DNA from: a virus
DNA: 64,000 nt
IMG/VR virus record: IMGVR_UViG_3300042924_004713
Coordinates: 1-64,000 of that record
Direction: 5' to 3' (one strand)
Made by a program: the position numbers and the translations under genes. Below the pieces are notes generated by a model that worked only from the letters and a program-made list of their open reading frames with translations, was not told the DNA's origin and ran no database searches. This document shows, piece by piece, positions 9,649 to 25,549 of this stretch. The stretch's first letter is position 1; each line of letters starts with the position of its first letter.

Positions 9649-10104
9649 ATGTTTTGGATAATTTCTTATTTGCCCAGCGACCTACTGTCAGCTATTGGTC
9701 TTATATTGCTGGGCGCAGGCGTGTTGATCACTGCCCTGGCATCATTGATAAAATTTGTGCCTGTGATCAATATGTATCGTTTGCACTTTCAAGTCTTGGG
9801 TGTGATCATACTGTTGGCAGGTGTGTATTTGCGTGGTGTGTTTGAAACTGAAATAGTCTGGCGAGAACGAGTACGAGTAGCAGAAGAAAAAGTTCGAGCC
9901 GCAGAAAAACAAGCCCAAGAAGCCACTGCACAAGTGGTCACAGAATATCGTGATCGGGTGAAAGTTGTAAAGCAAAAGGTTGAAGTTGTGAAAAAAGAAA
10001 TACAGGTTCAACGCGAGGTTATCAATGCCGACTGTAGACTGAATCCCACTGCTGTGGATCTTTATAATCGCAGTATTGCTGCGCCTGTGGAGAACAAAAA
10101 ATGA
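9649..10104 (+). CDS. Inner-membrane spanin-like protein (i-spanin, Rz-like)
   Basis: 151 residues. Two hydrophobic segments (about residues 12-34 and 43-62) are followed by a long charged coiled coil (about residues 68-125, rich in Glu, Lys, Arg and Val heptads). This is the plan of an i-spanin, which spans the periplasm and fuses inner and outer membranes at the last step of lysis, except that one rather than two membrane segments is usual. The assignment rests on topology and on the next gene, a short lipoprotein overlapping by 4 bases. Supports a Gram-negative host. Confidence 0.68.
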   Translation: MFWIISYLPSDLLSAIGLILLGAGVLITALASLIKFVPVINMYRLHFQVLGVIILLAGVYLRGVFETEIVWRERVRVAEEKVRAAEKQAQEATAQVVTEYRDRVKVVKQKVEVVKKEIQVQREVINADCRLNPTAVDLYNRSIAAPVENKK

Positions 10105-10412
10105 CTTTGGAAAAGAACCAGCAAAAACGCAGCTTCCTGATTGGCATGCTGCTGCTAATCCTGTTTGTGGTTGCCATGTGTTCGGGCTGCTCCACTCCGG
10201 TGCCAGTCACACAGAAATTTCCCGCTGCTGATCCTGTGATGATGGAGCCTGCCCCAGCACTGGTGGCCTTGCCCAAGGACACGGTGGAACTGGACAAGCT
10301 GATTGAAAACACAGCAGAAAACTATGGACGTTATCATGAAATGGTGCGCAGACTAGAACTCTGGCAAACATGGTACACCAAGCAGAAAAAGATATTTGAC
10401 TCCGTGCAATAA
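10101..10412 (+). CDS. Outer-membrane lipoprotein spanin-like protein (o-spanin, Rz1-like)
   Basis: 103 residues. A basic N-terminus, a hydrophobic stretch (about residues 12-27) and AMCSGCSTP give a lipoprotein signal with a lipobox-type Cys. The mature part is short, with a Pro-rich start and a helical C-terminus, as in o-spanins, which pair with an i-spanin. It overlaps the i-spanin gene by 4 bases. A different small lipoprotein is possible. Confidence 0.68.
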   Translation: MTLEKNQQKRSFLIGMLLLILFVVAMCSGCSTPVPVTQKFPAADPVMMEPAPALVALPKDTVELDKLIENTAENYGRYHEMVRRLELWQTWYTKQKKIFDSVQ

Positions 10413-10413
10413 C

Positions 10414-11289
10414 ATGCTGTTTCCGGATTTGATCTTGCACAGCCGTGTGAATCAAACCTGGCATACGTCGGGCATGGACAGTCTAGAACACTGCAACGAT
10501 CCACAGCATTTTCAAAACTATCCTTGGCCCATTGTTTATCAATACAACAGTCGTGGCTTCCGCGATCAAGAGTGGCCTAATAATTTTCAAGATGTGATTT
10601 GGTGCGTGGGCGACAGCTTCACAGTGGGCATAGGCTCGCCCTTGGAACACACCTGGCCCTGGCTGTTATCACAACACCTAAATCGGCGTATCATCAATGT
10701 CAGCATGGATGGCGCCAGTAATCAATGGATAGCTCGTAGAGCCAGTGAAATACTTGCATCTGGACTGGCATCGCACATGGTGATACAATGGAGCTACACA
10801 CATCGCCGTGAGAATCAGGACCTTGAGCAGCTGATTGATCAAAGATGGCGTGCGTTCTATCAAGACGTAAGAGATCACAGCTGGCCAGCGTGTCCTGCCT
10901 GGCAGCAGCGTGATCAGTTGCCAGTGAGAATTCAACAGGAACTTGCTCGTGATCCCTACTGGCAACAGATTGATCAGATACACGACGAAGAACGTAGAAT
11001 AGATGTGCCTAGAAGAGAAGCAGTGCTGGATCCCACTTTGAATTCTCAAAACTTTCGCGAGTGTTTGAATCAAGTGGAACACAGTCAGGGCATGATCAAG
11101 GTACTGCATACCTTTATACCAGACTGGAGCAATGATCCAGCGTTGACAGCGGAAATTCAGCAATGGCCCAGGCATAGAACCTGGTTGCCTGAAATTCAAC
11201 GCCTGGACTGGGCTCGTGATCACCATCATTATGACCTTAAAACAGCACACAAACTGGTGCTGGACATCCAAAATAAACTACTAGTATAA
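10414..11289 (+). CDS. SGNH/GDSL-hydrolase-like protein
   Basis: 291 residues. VIWCVGDSFTVGIGSP (about residues 62-77) is block I of SGNH esterases with the nucleophile Ser; MDGASNQWIARR fits the Gly/Asn block, and a late WARDHHHYD region may supply the Asp-His pair. SGNH enzymes deacylate lipids, glycans or peptidoglycan acetyl groups. Start at 10414, one base after the previous stop. Lies between the spanins and the endolysin, so removing O-acetyl groups from the wall is a reasonable guess, not shown. A second SGNH-like protein is at 60669. Confidence 0.65.
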   Translation: MLFPDLILHSRVNQTWHTSGMDSLEHCNDPQHFQNYPWPIVYQYNSRGFRDQEWPNNFQDVIWCVGDSFTVGIGSPLEHTWPWLLSQHLNRRIINVSMDGASNQWIARRASEILASGLASHMVIQWSYTHRRENQDLEQLIDQRWRAFYQDVRDHSWPACPAWQQRDQLPVRIQQELARDPYWQQIDQIHDEERRIDVPRREAVLDPTLNSQNFRECLNQVEHSQGMIKVLHTFIPDWSNDPALTAEIQQWPRHRTWLPEIQRLDWARDHHHYDLKTAHKLVLDIQNKLLV

Positions 11290-11300
11290 CCAAGTGTGAT

Positions 11301-11345
11301 AGCTGCCCCTGTTTGCTAAATATTGGCAAACTACAACAGGGAGCT
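11301..11345 (+). promoter_or_regulatory. RBS-sequestering hairpin with embedded late promoter box before the endolysin
   Basis: Strands 11301-11304 (AGCT) pair with 11342-11345, 11307-11312 (CCCTGT) with 11336-11341 (ACAGGG), and 11313-11316 with 11326-11329, with small bulges. The second 3' strand is the ribosome binding site of the gene at 11349. The loop holds CTAAATA (11316-11322), a T4-type late box; a transcript starting about 7 bases after it would lack the 5' strand and leave the site free. The same device controls T4 gene e (lysozyme). Confidence 0.65.
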
Positions 11346-11348
11346 ACA

Positions 11349-11963
11349 ATGGAGCTAAAACTCAACCAACTCAAAGAGATGGTGCACGGCATACCCTATG
11401 CTGAACAATGGCACCACGCACTGGAGCAACTACTTCCAGACTATCAAATCAATACCCCCAAGCGTATCGCAGCGTTTATTGCTCAATGTGCGCATGAGTC
11501 AGGTGGGTTTAGATTTGTCAGCGAAAATCTCAACTACAAAGCGGAAAGTCTCATGAAGGTTTTCCCCAAGTATTTTCACACCAAGGAATTGGCCAATGCC
11601 TATGCTAAAAATCCTGAAAAAATCGCCAACAGAGTCTATGCCAATCGCATGGGCAACGGAGACGAAGCATCAGGTGATGGCTTTAAGTATCGAGGCCGCG
11701 GATTAATTCAACTCACTGGCAAAGAAAATTATTCTTGGTTCGCAGCCAGTCTGCAGATTTCCCCCGAAGAAGCCACAGAGTACATGAGCACTTTTGAAGG
11801 TGCTGCTCAGAGCGCCTGTTGGTTCTGGGAGACCAACAACCTAAACAAAGAAGCCGACGCAGGTGATATCAAGCTCATGACACGCAAAATCAATGGTGGT
11901 TTCATTGGACTTGAGGATCGTATCAAACACTATAATCATGCACTGCATGTGCTAGGAGTATAA
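11349..11963 (+). CDS. GH19-type endolysin
   Basis: 204 residues. Glycoside hydrolase family 19 fold: AFIAQCAHESGGFRFVSE holds the catalytic Glu, and FKYRGRGLIQLTGKENY is the conserved GRGxxQLTG signature. In phages this fold cleaves peptidoglycan to release progeny. No signal peptide, so export needs a holin; holin-like proteins follow. Start at 11349 with CAGGGAG upstream. Expression is probably restricted to late times by the hairpin described before it. A second GH19 domain is in the cargo protein at 23972. Confidence 0.9.
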   Translation: MELKLNQLKEMVHGIPYAEQWHHALEQLLPDYQINTPKRIAAFIAQCAHESGGFRFVSENLNYKAESLMKVFPKYFHTKELANAYAKNPEKIANRVYANRMGNGDEASGDGFKYRGRGLIQLTGKENYSWFAASLQISPEEATEYMSTFEGAAQSACWFWETNNLNKEADAGDIKLMTRKINGGFIGLEDRIKHYNHALHVLGV

Positions 11964-16404: not shown

Positions 16405-16411
16405 CTAAATA
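16405..16411 (+). promoter_or_regulatory. Late-type box (CTAAATA) close to a start codon
   Basis: CTAAATA ends 7 bases before the ATG at 16419; a short inverted repeat GTGTT/AACAC (16393-16397, 16411-16415) brackets it. A transcript from it would be nearly leaderless, so promoter function is uncertain. Confidence 0.3.
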
Positions 16412-18131: not shown

Positions 18132-18177
18132 CCTCTCTGTGCTACAATTAAATATCAAGCACTTTTTATCAGAGAGG
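18132..18177 (+). promoter_or_regulatory. RBS-sequestering hairpin with late box in the loop
   Basis: CCTCTCTG (18132-18139) pairs perfectly with CAGAGAGG (18170-18177), whose GAGAGG is the ribosome binding site of the gene at 18183; GCT/AGC (18141-18143, 18058-type partner at 18158-18160) extends it inward. The loop holds TTAAATA (18148-18154). Transcripts starting about 18161 would lose the 5' strand. Same design as at 11301. Confidence 0.62.
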
Positions 18178-18182
18178 AATTT

Positions 18183-19145
18183 ATGGTTGACCAAACAACA
18201 AACGACAGCGTAGCAGCAGAAAGTCTGCCCGTTGAATCTGCACCTGCTGAAGCACCTGCCGCGGATAACAACTCAACACAAATTCAAGTTAATGTTGATT
18301 TCCTAAGAAAAACTCGAGTACACATCTGCATGCCCTGCTATGGCGGCATGCTCACAGAACAATGCTTTATGAGCTTTGTTAAATGGGGCAATGCCTGCAG
18401 ACAACTGGGCATTGACTGGACTGTGGAAACCATGACCAATGAGAGTCTGATTTCACGAGCACGAAACACACTAGTGGCCAAATTCCTCAGTAATCCAGAA
18501 AGCACACACTTGATGTTTATTGACGCAGACATCGGCTGGGAGCCTTGGCATCTGCTGGCTCTGCTTAACCATGACAAGGATGTTGTGGGAGGTCTTTATC
18601 CCATGAAAACCATTCCTGTGAAATGGTGTGTGAACGGCATTCCTGGTGCTCCAGACAATGACCCCAATGGACTACTAGAAGTTACCAAGACTGGCACAGG
18701 ATTTCTGTTGATCAAACGCGAGGTATTTGAAAAACTCAAGGCACACCCTGCTGTAAAGCCTTTTGCCAATGACATTGGACTTGACGCTAGCCTAGACAAA
18801 GACATGAAAACCTACTTTGACACTGCTGTGCGCGAAAATCGTTACTACAGTGAGGATTGGACCTTCTGCGAAAACTGGCGCGATCTGGGCGGTCAGGTCT
18901 GGGTGGATAAGCGTATTCTTCTGCGTCATGTGGGCACACATACCTTTGATTTCGCTACACAGGAAAACATGTATCGTGAACTGCACAAAGTAGCACAGGC
19001 CAATGGCAAAGCCTTGAACGCCGACAGTGATCTAACACAGCCTGTGCCTGCTCCTGTGGTATCAGGTCCAGAACCAGTGGCTGCTCCTGTGAAAGCTCGC
19101 GTACTAAGCGCCAGCGAGAATCTAGAAACCGAGCCAGCTGCCTAA
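18183..19145 (+). CDS. GT-A type glycosyltransferase-like protein
   Basis: 320 residues. After a disordered Ala/Glu-rich N-terminus (1-40) comes a GT-A nucleotide-sugar fold: RVHICMPCYGGM, a long helix, THLMFIDADIGWEP (the DxD-type metal site) and DVVGGLYPMK, as in GT2-like phage glycosyltransferases. Residues 225-260 (YSEDWTFCENWRDLGGQVW) form the acceptor-side region with a probable catalytic Asp/Glu. The C-terminal 50 residues are Pro/Val/Ala-rich. Could glycosylate virion proteins or host structures. Translation is probably late-only because of the upstream hairpin. Confidence 0.78.
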   Translation: MVDQTTNDSVAAESLPVESAPAEAPAADNNSTQIQVNVDFLRKTRVHICMPCYGGMLTEQCFMSFVKWGNACRQLGIDWTVETMTNESLISRARNTLVAKFLSNPESTHLMFIDADIGWEPWHLLALLNHDKDVVGGLYPMKTIPVKWCVNGIPGAPDNDPNGLLEVTKTGTGFLLIKREVFEKLKAHPAVKPFANDIGLDASLDKDMKTYFDTAVRENRYYSEDWTFCENWRDLGGQVWVDKRILLRHVGTHTFDFATQENMYRELHKVAQANGKALNADSDLTQPVPAPVVSGPEPVAAPVKARVLSASENLETEPAA

Positions 19146-22100: not shown

Positions 22101-23975
22101 GCCATGTTCTTGGGCGACAACTATGTTCTAGAGCAGTTTGGTCGTGCAGGAAATACCTATTGCAAGTCAGCCCTGAATAAAATCAAAGCAGAAGTAAAAC
22201 AAGATCCCGCAAGACTCAAAAACATGCTTCAGGCCATGCAGGGAGAATTAAACAGCATAGCCAGCAAAATTGTTCATACCGGCAACACTGACAAATATAC
22301 CAGCATCAACACCAAGGACAATCGTGTGGAGTTTCGCAGTCCTGGCGGCGATTATCTTGACATATTAGCCAACGATCCTGCACAGATCACAAACACACTG
22401 CTGCGCACAGTGGTAGCTTTGGATGTGGCCATGAAACCTGAAGCGTTCCGTCAAGAGTACATGAAAAAGCTGTACAAGACTCTCACACCAACGGAATTCA
22501 CAGGCGGTCGAGGCGAGCGTCAAACTAGATTGGAATCACAGACCAACGAGGTCGCTGACCTGCTCAGCAAGTACATCGCAGGTGAATTGCCGCAGTCAGC
22601 ACTAAAAAGCTTTATCCAGCAGATTAAGAAAAAGCGTGACGATAAGAAGCAGCCACCAGAAACGCAAACACCTAGTCGTGATCAAGAGTTTTCAGGCACT
22701 TGGGAAATTGTGGCTCGTAATACCGACGAAGTAGTACGCCAATTTAGTGGTGTTGGTAATGCCATAAGAGATGCTGAAGTGTGGGCAAGAAGATGGGCAA
22801 TGGATACCGGATATGATGATCCGTACTATGTGCGCCCTGTAATGCGACCAAGAACCGCGCCACCTGAAACCTCCATTTATCAAATTGTAAACTACCAAGA
22901 CGGTGAAGTGTTAAGTCCGGGACTAAACATGCCTTGGGTTTATGCTCGTGCTCTTGCTGATGATATAGCTCGGCGTCGTGGTATGGGTAGAGCCGACATC
23001 AGAATTGTTGACCTAGAAAACAATCAGACCTATAGTTTTGAAGGTAGACTGATACAGCCAAGTGTGAGAGCCACTGCCGGGGAACCTGTACCAGCTGGTA
23101 GTGTAGGTGGTGGATTCGCTCGAGCACCACATACCAGCATATATCAATTGATTGATAATAGAAATGGTCAAATAATGCTAGGCGGCGAAACAAGAACTTT
23201 TGCTGACACCGTAGAGAAGGCCAATATTTTAATGCGTGACTATAGGCTTACAGCTGATGATATTAGAATTGTTGATATGTATACCAATACTGTATATGAT
23301 ATCAATGGTCGTCCTGTAAGTGGCAACAATGCTAATACTTCTAGCATAGATGGCGAGCAAAGCACAGATGCCAACTACGAAATCATTGATCTTGAAACTC
23401 GTGGACCAGTTTTTAGATTCATTGCCAACACCGATCAAGAAGCACAGAGAAAGTTTATAGATTGGTTGGAAGCAGGTGATCGCTTTATTGGCCAGTATTA
23501 TTGGCGTAGAATTGAAGGTCGTGGCATACCAGGGTCAACAGCAGAACTGCAACGACAGCGATCAGATCAGCAAGTACAAGGTTTTAGAGTCTCTTATACC
23601 GTTACCCATGACGATGAAGTTAGAAATAACACTGTGACTATTCAAGCCCGTAATGCTGACGCTGCAATGGATGTTATGAGAACTAATTTACAACGGGCTG
23701 GATATGAGGTTCTTAGAATTGAAGCTGAACCTGTGGCACAAACTCTAGAGCCACCACCAGAAACAGTAGATATTTCAATGCCCGGTCAGGCTCGCGGAAC
23801 AGAAAGCTTACCACCCGGCAACACTCGCTGGTTGATACTTGATCCAAACGACCGTGAAGTATATAGTTTTGTACATCGTAGTAATCAAGGCGAAGCAAAT
23901 CAATATGCTGTGAACTGGCTAAGACAAAACGGTCTACTAGGCAGTGGCGAATTCATGGTGGTGCCAGCAAGATGA
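19164..23975 (+). CDS. Giant multidomain protein: nucleotidyltransferase + HExxH peptidase + amidoligase + beta-alpha repeats
   Basis: 1603 residues. Seen in order: an MNT-type nucleotidyltransferase (GSNAAYNYTPNSDIDLHLVV at 65-84, third acidic site DADVELYV at 115-122); a Gly/Tyr/Ser-rich linker (about 245-275); a zincin-like peptidase with MAHELVHAHQ (HExxH at 371-375) and a downstream ENEAN; EDWKSSLG followed by an Ala-rich hydrophobic stretch (532-556) that looks like a signal peptide in mid-protein; an amidoligase-2-like domain (about 695-1110: AGLEFEMYV, GLEFISPP, TGLHMNISVPG, NRVEFRSPGGDYLD); and from about 1170 a series of 50-65 residue modules including two clear tandem copies (TSIYQIVNYQDGEV and TSIYQLIDNRNGQI). 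Probably a virion-packaged, ejected protein; that is inference from its neighbours. Confidence 0.85.
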   Translation: MHIDELENYNLADAVRFHDELNPGLWGKDEHLRPEVREALLRIADDFREFLGVSDLEVQDITISGSNAAYNYTPNSDIDLHLVVNIPELDDEVYRELFNAKKYQYNDQHDIRVRDADVELYVQPANDPHISQGIYSLVNNKWLSVPRRQRAKIDDDSVRHKAEDLEARINQAIESGDRETMDRLWQKIKDMRKSGLEQKGEFSTENLVFKMLRVNKLIERLQTARQAARDQELSLSERKRKKSRKRYAYGGYWYPGYSYYGSGSEGSDSGGDGGGESVQEDVGSTWDGVSPTTRMFTSEQEHTENKNVIGKFARFVAQQIGMSKLPRIRVTRDPKWSSKNGTFGHYDQNTQTLTISLANRHIMDVLRTMAHELVHAHQDREHGLPSTAGKTGSPYENEANAVAGRIMRRWAKKHGNMFDQPATEDYDPNARPPGPETKPTMPAGTVRVDVSDVYDWYKLGQHISDLEGLGKHDFGKGPPSAIFSFGDEDTEHKYINNLKRTGLDVTDIDPRDPNQPPGMKKIKTDPTYNVDEDWKSSLGAAAAAACIAGTPGCATTNTDSSPTADVLRGVQTVGRTAQAVKDMGVGGAKEELINQLRDKLRGIREATGYIPTKKQARDPRFSMALTKDIQPGQIGKEANKLKLDTDSQGHPALLMKRLNNLLESVKTDEQLDEDELFELKMSPSNLAKMAKDIDARAGLEFEMYVPNVDADDEEFESEPDYGADEYFPMGPGWQSDVMDFFRGGDMSSPRVLIQRAIDELNENFYEWVGEQEEEFLASNEGRERAIEIATSNVSRDDFETDEEYEAAVREYLTDNEDDIRDELIDEFRDDLDSKFEEWLDDQGIRMMADFASEYGLEWPYWTEPDDYSRGGADIDDVARDFQDAVGRPVKTGGYHSGAYSQTNNYRVETDSSLSDPDEPGDAGLEFISPPLTIPEMLGDIKKITAWANRVGAYTNDTTGLHMNISVPGYSMQKLDYVKLAMFLGDNYVLEQFGRAGNTYCKSALNKIKAEVKQDPARLKNMLQAMQGELNSIASKIVHTGNTDKYTSINTKDNRVEFRSPGGDYLDILANDPAQITNTLLRTVVALDVAMKPEAFRQEYMKKLYKTLTPTEFTGGRGERQTRLESQTNEVADLLSKYIAGELPQSALKSFIQQIKKKRDDKKQPPETQTPSRDQEFSGTWEIVARNTDEVVRQFSGVGNAIRDAEVWARRWAMDTGYDDPYYVRPVMRPRTAPPETSIYQIVNYQDGEVLSPGLNMPWVYARALADDIARRRGMGRADIRIVDLENNQTYSFEGRLIQPSVRATAGEPVPAGSVGGGFARAPHTSIYQLIDNRNGQIMLGGETRTFADTVEKANILMRDYRLTADDIRIVDMYTNTVYDINGRPVSGNNANTSSIDGEQSTDANYEIIDLETRGPVFRFIANTDQEAQRKFIDWLEAGDRFIGQYYWRRIEGRGIPGSTAELQRQRSDQQVQGFRVSYTVTHDDEVRNNTVTIQARNADAAMDVMRTNLQRAGYEVLRIEAEPVAQTLEPPPETVDISMPGQARGTESLPPGNTRWLILDPNDREVYSFVHRSNQGEANQYAVNWLRQNGLLGSGEFMVVPAR

Positions 23976-25549
23976 GAGCCAGCGAGTTTATTGTAGAATC
24001 AAAGATACCTGATGTGGTCTATCACGGCACGGCATCTGCCAACCTCACCAACATAATGAAACACGGTATCAAACCCAAGTTAAATCGTTATGCATACTCC
24101 AATAGACAACACGGTGGCGGAATAGCAACAGGTTTAGAACTAGAGCCAGGTAAACGTAGAAGTGATTTAGAAACTATCAGCACCAGTGTGAACTTTGACA
24201 ACAGTTTAGAGTATGCCAAATTGGGTGGCAGCACAGGTTCAGGCTCTCCTGGCGTGGTACTAGCGTTTCGTCCATTGCCCAGTGATAGCTTTGAAGAAAC
24301 CGGCATGCCTGGTGAAGTTGTATTCCGCAATGCTATCTCTCCAGATAGACTACAAATAGTCTGGCCCCAACGACTAGCGGGCAAAGAAAAACAACTCGCA
24401 CAAAAAGCCGAAAAGAAAAAACAATCAGGTGCTGAAAAAACACAGCAGATCAAAAGCATTAACCAGCAACTCAAAGCCGCAGGTTCTAGTATAAGAATCA
24501 AGTCAACCAACCCTAATACTGCAAGAATTGCCATATGGTTTATGGATCCTGACAACCCTGTACAGGTAGGCAACACCAACATAGATGATCAAAATTTCGC
24601 AGTATTCTTGAAAAAAGAACTAGCTAACCCTGCACCCAACAAACAACGCTATTATGGTAGAACCAATTGGTTAAATGAATTCGCTCCTGAAGGATTTGAG
24701 CAATACAGTTTATACACCGGTGATGGTGTTAGAAATCATTTAGTTGATAAATTTTCGTCATTAAACGCAGCCAAGGAAGAAGTTGAGTTTATATGGGACT
24801 CAGATCCCGAAGCTCGTCTGGCTATATGGTTTATTAAAAATCTAAATGATGAAGTGGTGTGGTCCTATGATCCACAGGAAATAGCGGATGCGCCAAGATA
24901 TCAGTTTAGAAAAAAATCTGATGATCTTGAAGAAATGAATCGTAGAGGATTCCTAGGAGCCATGGGAGCAGGTGCAATGGCTGCTGCGGGAGTTCCCTCA
25001 CAAGCAGCTAACAAGGTGGGACCACCCATGCTCAGTGCCAACATTGGTGCAGAAGAGGCTCTTCATCGTGCGGCTCGTGCTGCTGGCATACGTGGCGTGG
25101 AACTTGCGCAGTTTCTAGCACAGTGTTATCATGAGTCTGGCGGCTTTAAATACATGCAAGAACTAGGTGATCCACGTTATTTTCTACGATACGATCCTAG
25201 AGTAGATCCTGCCAAGGCACGTGTGCTAGGTAATGTAAAGCCAGGAGATGGTGAACGCTACAAGGGTCGTGGATTTATACAGATCACTGGCAGAGATAAC
25301 TATCGTAGAGCCGGTGAAGCTCTGGGTCTGCCCTTGGAAGACCGGCCAGAACTCGCAGCTAGAATGGATGTGGCAGCACGTATTGCAGTATGGTATTGGA
25401 AACAAAGAGTCAAGCCCAATGTGTCTAATTTCAATGACACTCGTGCGGTGACTCGGCAAATCAATCCCAACATGCGCGGTCTTGAAGATCGACATGAAAA
25501 TTTCAAAGACTATAAAAAGGTCTTTAGTATGAATTGGAAAGCTGTATGA
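23972..25549 (+). CDS. CTS-tagged ADP-ribosyltransferase-like / GH19 hydrolase fusion
   Basis: 525 residues. The N-terminus MRASEFIVES resembles the T4 capsid-targeting leader (cut after Glu). Residues about 12-130 contain DVVYHGTASANLTNIMKHGI and GDELEPGKRR-like followed by ISTSVNFDN, the layout of ADP-ribosyltransferase or RNA 2'-phosphotransferase folds. Residues 130-320 hold two related beta modules. At 322 MNRRGFLGAMGAGAMAAAG looks like a twin-arginine signal peptide, then VPSQAAN and a GH19 domain (QCYHESGGFKYM with catalytic Glu; YKGRGFIQITGRDNY). The internal ATG at 24935 could also start a separate 204-residue exported hydrolase. Overlaps both neighbours by 4 bases. Confidence 0.82.
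   Translation: MRASEFIVESKIPDVVYHGTASANLTNIMKHGIKPKLNRYAYSNRQHGGGIATGLELEPGKRRSDLETISTSVNFDNSLEYAKLGGSTGSGSPGVVLAFRPLPSDSFEETGMPGEVVFRNAISPDRLQIVWPQRLAGKEKQLAQKAEKKKQSGAEKTQQIKSINQQLKAAGSSIRIKSTNPNTARIAIWFMDPDNPVQVGNTNIDDQNFAVFLKKELANPAPNKQRYYGRTNWLNEFAPEGFEQYSLYTGDGVRNHLVDKFSSLNAAKEEVEFIWDSDPEARLAIWFIKNLNDEVVWSYDPQEIADAPRYQFRKKSDDLEEMNRRGFLGAMGAGAMAAAGVPSQAANKVGPPMLSANIGAEEALHRAARAAGIRGVELAQFLAQCYHESGGFKYMQELGDPRYFLRYDPRVDPAKARVLGNVKPGDGERYKGRGFIQITGRDNYRRAGEALGLPLEDRPELAARMDVAARIAVWYWKQRVKPNVSNFNDTRAVTRQINPNMRGLEDRHENFKDYKKVFSMNWKAV

Follow-up and report, generated by a model that had tools for sequence, protein, structure and literature searches.

Genomic Context of the Endolysin

A lysis cassette lies on the + strand of the window, the whole 64,000-nucleotide stretch of DNA that was analysed, which belongs to a virus record of 166,408 bases. 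The first gene of the cassette (9649..10104; phrog_4952) encodes a candidate holin or i-spanin with membrane segments and a coiled coil, and is followed by an Rz-like spanin gene with a lipobox-like start (10101..10412; phrog_1267, E 2e-4, and synteny). A 297-aa ORF without a family match (10396..11289) stands between this o-spanin-like gene and the endolysin gene; it was not detected at the equivalent position in nearly all relatives, and besides an identical contig it has a single further homologue, which is distant (L089, 54%). The endolysin (11349..11963) is a 204 aa GH19-type protein (phrog_181, E 3.8e-76; Pfam GH19 below cut-off), while T4 gene e encodes a GH24 lysozyme; the initial annotation was right to place the two enzymes in different families. 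A second GH19-type protein is encoded at window positions 23972-25549, with its domain at the C-terminus (phrog_181, 364-518), and is perhaps virion-associated.

The source phage is T4-like and of freshwater type. The record encodes a T4-type DNA polymerase (phrog_262) and the T4-type head proteins gp20, gp21, and gp23 (phrog_213, phrog_207, and phrog_138: portal, head protease, and major head protein), the last being 67% identical to the major head proteins of other T4-like phages; DNA comparison gave no close phage record. A gene for a gp55-type late sigma factor is present at genome positions 144880-145770 (phrog_12791, 3e-75; phrog_234, 2e-23). The PF02916 profile of the gp45 sliding clamp found no match across the 166-kb record, which may mean that the record is incomplete or that the clamp is divergent. 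At genome ~76820-76892 a pstS-like gene has Pho-box-like repeats (CTGTAACACAGTTGTAATACCA) upstream, an arrangement also seen in phages that exploit the phosphate regulon of their host; downstream of it lie genes for a porin-like protein, GroES, and GroEL (names read from translations).

The hexamer TAAATA is the most enriched one 5-70 nt upstream of ORFs, on the gene strand (20 seen versus 1.67 expected, P 2e-15), and this supports its identity as a real T4-type late promoter box in the source genome, where 56 such boxes were counted. S-PM2, Syn9, and other T4-like phages have late promoters with the same TAAATA core (NATAAATA) and a gp55-type sigma factor (PMC2984593, PMC2988020). A general placement of late boxes inside hairpins was considered and rejected, as stems flanking all 56 boxes show no overall excess.

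The Endolysin Leader

The leader of the endolysin gene reads, in order, CCCTGTTTGC, TAAATA, TTG, GCAAAC, TACA, ACAGGGAG (11336-11343), CTACA, and the ATG at 11349, all on the + strand. The intergenic 5' arm of its hairpin, CCCTGTTTGC (11307..11316), has two partners: GTTTGC (11311-11316) pairs with the inner 3' arm GCAAAC (11326..11331), and CCCTGT (11307-11312) pairs with the outer 3' arm ACAGGG (11336..11341), which contains part of the Shine-Dalgarno (SD) sequence AGGGAG (11338..11343). Since these pairings share two bases of the 5' arm (11311-11312), two registers compete; the hairpin is asymmetric, with a bulge on one side only. The ribosome binding site of the endolysin is therefore on the 3' strand of a hairpin, as had been claimed.

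The late box (11317..11322) stands between the arms, and late transcription is predicted to start at 11328, six bases past the box as in T4; the box-to-ATG distance peaks at 11 in this genome, which with T4 spacing places the AUG at +1 and supports this position for the endolysin. RNA started there would lack the 5' arm. The initial annotation had put the box in the loop and the late start within it, and this picture needs adjustment: the box does lie between the arms, but is partly paired in the minimum free energy (MFE) structure, and 11328 falls outside the loop, on the 3' side of the inner helix; what stands is the exposure of the site, as the late RNA (11328-11363) is predicted to be nearly unstructured (-2.7 kcal/mol, z -0.25).

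The predicted folding energy of the read-through RNA is about -19 to -20 kcal/mol. The proposed folding of 11295-11360 against shuffled sequence gives -19.0 kcal/mol versus -13.05 +/- 2.53 (z -2.35, 6/200), and 11300-11363 also gives -19.0 (z -2.52, 3/200 dinucleotide shuffles). The cost of opening the translation initiation region (TIR) is 8.8 kcal/mol in the long RNA versus 3.1 in the late RNA, so that the hiding of the SD in read-through transcripts is upheld by prediction; this closure is weaker than that of T4 gene e, which served as a positive control (z -3.37, with an opening cost of 15.7 versus 1.0 or 3.8). When the 16 bases before the box were replaced with random genomic 16-mers (n=2000), an equal or better MFE was seen in 0.1% (P ~0.001) and an equal or better SD closure in 1.6%; among flanks taken from other late boxes, 2/109 pair equally well with the endolysin SD (P 0.018). 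Shuffling of 28-nt flanks gave too little statistical power for a test on opening energy.

The only other copy of the hairpin (L088/L175) is identical and hence carries no covariation; judged from this single copy, selection on the hairpin is likely, short of proof by the copy alone. A search with the inner stem for further phages with the hairpin was set aside, as 10 of 11 matches lie in unrelated contexts and the eleventh is the identical contig. The window gave no match in an Rfam search. A terminator was rejected because no T run follows the hairpin, and a sigma-70-like match, TTGGCA-16-TACAAT (11323-11350), was rejected because its start would fall inside the endolysin gene; sigma-70-like matches overall are about as frequent as in shuffled sequence (23 versus 18).

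Further Leaders with the Same Logic

Three leaders in the source genome carry such a device: that of the endolysin, that of the gene at window position 18183, and that of a gene at genome position 71,946. The gene at 18183, whose product (phrog_1574) is possibly a glycosyltransferase, shares the layout of the endolysin leader on the + strand (CCTCTCTGTGCT, ACAAT, TAAATA, AGCAC, CAGAGAGG): the 5' arm CCTCTCTGTGCT lies at 18132..18143, the late box at 18149..18154, and the 3' strands AGCAC and CAGAGAGG at 18158..18177, with the SD carried by CAGAGAGG. The leader folds at -16.2 kcal/mol (z -2.95, 0/200), and the opening cost is 10.7 for the long RNA versus 3.5 for the late RNA.

Of about 80 relatives, nearly all keep TAAATA before their homolog of this gene, and the hairpin covaries among them. 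The pairing of each homolog's own flank with its SD side beats that of swapped flanks (z 6.4 and 4.1 at 75% and 50% dereplication, 0/5000 permutations), and compensated pairs include CTCTAT/ATAGAG, CTCTAG/CTAGAG, CTCGT/ACGAG, and CTGT/ACAG; no excess of own-flank pairing was found for other box genes of the relatives. The register varies, RNAalifold detected no structure common to the family's aligned leaders, and a fixed-register test under strict dereplication is weak (z 1.96); by these comparisons the device is not universal within the family. An extended -10-like element stands directly upstream of the late box in 33/61 leaders of the family (loose pattern), which suggests that early and late promoters overlap; early RNA could then start from this element, inside the 5' arm. 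Among the relatives L092-L169 the -10-like element TGnTATACT/TATAAT often precedes the late box.

A variant layout, in which the 5' arm lies between the box and the late start rather than upstream of the box, is seen in T4 gene e, at genome 71,946, at the endolysin of the relative L176, and at the first lysis-cassette gene of relatives. The leader at 71,946 reads ATAGTGT-TTTAGG-ACACTAT-ATG (P 0.011); an outer perfect repeat, CCACAATGG/CCATTGTGG, is also present there, and the downstream gene encodes a small secreted-type protein. In L003 and L183 the first lysis-cassette gene is preceded by ATACTGTAT-CGAGG-ATACAGT-ATG, the best of 1024. A pattern scan for leaders of this lysis-cassette type, which fixed only the outer CT/AG pairs, found at least 22 distinct inner sequences; among the matches listed, inner pairs number 61 versus 23.1 by permutation (z 7.5, 0/5000), with the compensated variants CTCC/GGAG, CTGTTA/TAACAG, and CTGGTA/TACCAG. 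Several of these leaders have no clear SD, and in them the hairpin would shield the start region itself. A compact device, TAAATACTCC-loop-GGAGTAT-ATG, in which the SD is the 3' arm, occurs in many other viral contigs (L290, L341, L379, and L382 among them), before genes whose products begin MWIY/MWLY or MWNCKHC.

Related Endolysins and the Origin of the Hairpin

About 150 related endolysin loci were compared; late boxes less than about 100 nt from the gene are almost absent, most loci have neither an adjacent box nor a hairpin, and in many the spanin gene abuts the endolysin gene. The endolysin of L176, which after the identical contig has the most similar N-terminal part (84%), is preceded by a late box 23 nt before the ATG and by a different perfect hairpin, AUACUAGC-CAAGGA-GCUAGUAU, whose loop holds the SD and whose 3' arm ends in the AUG. 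Its opening cost is 14.3 kcal/mol in the long RNA versus 2.6 in the late RNA, and its native 5-mer CTAGC is the best of all 1024. The endolysin of L034 gave P 0.016 in the flank test, the smallest value attainable.

The hairpin of the closest box-bearing relative is thus unrelated and boxes are rare at related endolysins, which makes inheritance from a T4-like ancestor unlikely; descent from the leader of T4 gene e in particular is opposed by the different enzyme family and by relatives with either no hairpin or unrelated ones. That the logic recurs while the sequence differs argues for renewed origin, and the endolysin switch probably arose locally. Where the device had been described as either kept or re-evolved, the comparison makes the latter the more likely.

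Leaderless Spacing

Boxes 10-14 bases before an ATG number 12 in the source genome versus 1.5 expected, with a mode of 11; examples are found at window positions 16406, 17053, and 19150 and at genome positions 158189, where the gene is that of the portal protein, and 159937. Among relatives there are 76 cases in which box and ATG are exactly 11 bases apart, and the first lysis-cassette gene has this spacing, without an SD, in L006, L010, L011, L017, L046, L066, L185, and L199. Such close boxes point to putative leaderless late mRNAs. If late RNA starts at the AUG the message would be leaderless, and the internal copy of the gene on read-through transcripts would yield hardly any protein. First lysis-cassette genes of relatives carry either a hairpin or leaderless spacing. 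It is tentatively proposed, as an idea somewhat short of even odds, that in this group of environmental T4-like phages many late genes, lysis genes included, are translated only from RNA of their own late promoter, through two interchangeable designs: a hairpin that loses its 5' arm, placed before the box or between box and start, through the late start, or a leaderless AUG at +1 without an SD, which would keep read-through RNA untranslated.

A Predicted Timing Switch and Its Alternatives

The endolysin leader is probably a timing switch of the gene e type. Early and middle read-through RNA would carry both arms, fold, and bury the SD, so that little endolysin is made; after replication, the late sigma factor would bring RNA polymerase to TAAATA, and the late RNA, starting near 11328 without the 5' arm, would leave the SD exposed. 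Endolysin would then be made only from late-started RNA. The existence of the read-through RNA, the position of the late 5' end, and the strength of repression are inferred; an SD predicted to be covered in the long RNA and open in the late RNA, the late box enriched across the genome, the late sigma factor gene, and the relatives with other hairpins count for the switch.

Timing could instead be set by a real late promoter alone, with the hairpin a chance fold of little effect. This explanation draws on the 56 boxes of the genome, on the roughly 2.3-2.7% of control sites with an equally strong flanking stem (by which the endolysin site ranks 2nd among the 56 boxes), and on the missing covariation of the endolysin copy; closure of the whole TIR (-14 to +3) against foreign flanks is also weaker, at P 0.10. 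It is nevertheless unlikely, given the MFE result (P 0.001), the SD-specific results (P 0.016-0.018), and the repetition of the same logic in three leaders of the source genome and at the L176 endolysin. Structured leaders can alter RNA decay, and the hairpin might affect RNA stability or processing, by protecting the 5' end or by offering an RNase site, and leave ribosome access unchanged; the position of the arms follows the SD or the start codon across the devices, however, and the unstructured RNA is the late one, which is expected to be productive, so that this explanation is very improbable. Least probable is that the repeat binds a protein and serves as an operator across the promoter: it does enclose the promoter, and I-TevI autorepression in T4 offers a precedent (PMC2988022), but the repeat is asymmetric, with its one-sided bulge, its 3' arm coincides with the SD, and in relatives the arms co-vary while a fixed site is not kept.

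Published accounts of the late RNA and hairpin mechanism cover e, soc, 49, and I-TevI, among other T4 genes, and note that close relatives of T4 are predicted to share the leader structure of gene e and that several other relatives lack it (PMC3014915, PMC2988022). The predicted switch resembles gene e (PMC3014915) in that the SD of a lysis gene lies on the 3' side of a hairpin, with a late box between the arms and a late RNA without the 5' arm. The two differ in that gene e encodes T4 lysozyme, has two boxes, and has the 5' arm between the box and the late start, whereas the endolysin is of GH19 type, has one box with the 5' arm upstream of it, and has a weaker closure known by prediction. 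Escape of a late-started RNA from the hairpin is also shared with T4 soc, gene 49, I-TevI/II/III, segB, and Aeh1 mobE (PMC3014915, PMC2988022), which are unrelated genes, several of them experimentally tested. For S-PM2, Syn9, and other T4-like phages a hairpin at the lysis-gene ribosome binding site is not reported in the passages of PMC2984593 and PMC2988020 that were consulted; in the open-licence literature searched, neither a GH19 endolysin under an e-type device nor a leaderless late message of a T4-like phage was reported.

The gene e device is thus known, and here it seems to guard an unrelated enzyme and to recur in other forms on late genes of relatives. This suggests that it is a general and repeatedly re-made tie of translation to late transcription, reaching beyond the lysozyme of T-even phages; the leaderless alternative, if true, would be a second and simpler route to the same end. 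Genes that are silent early in uncultured T4-like phages could become predictable from sequence alone.
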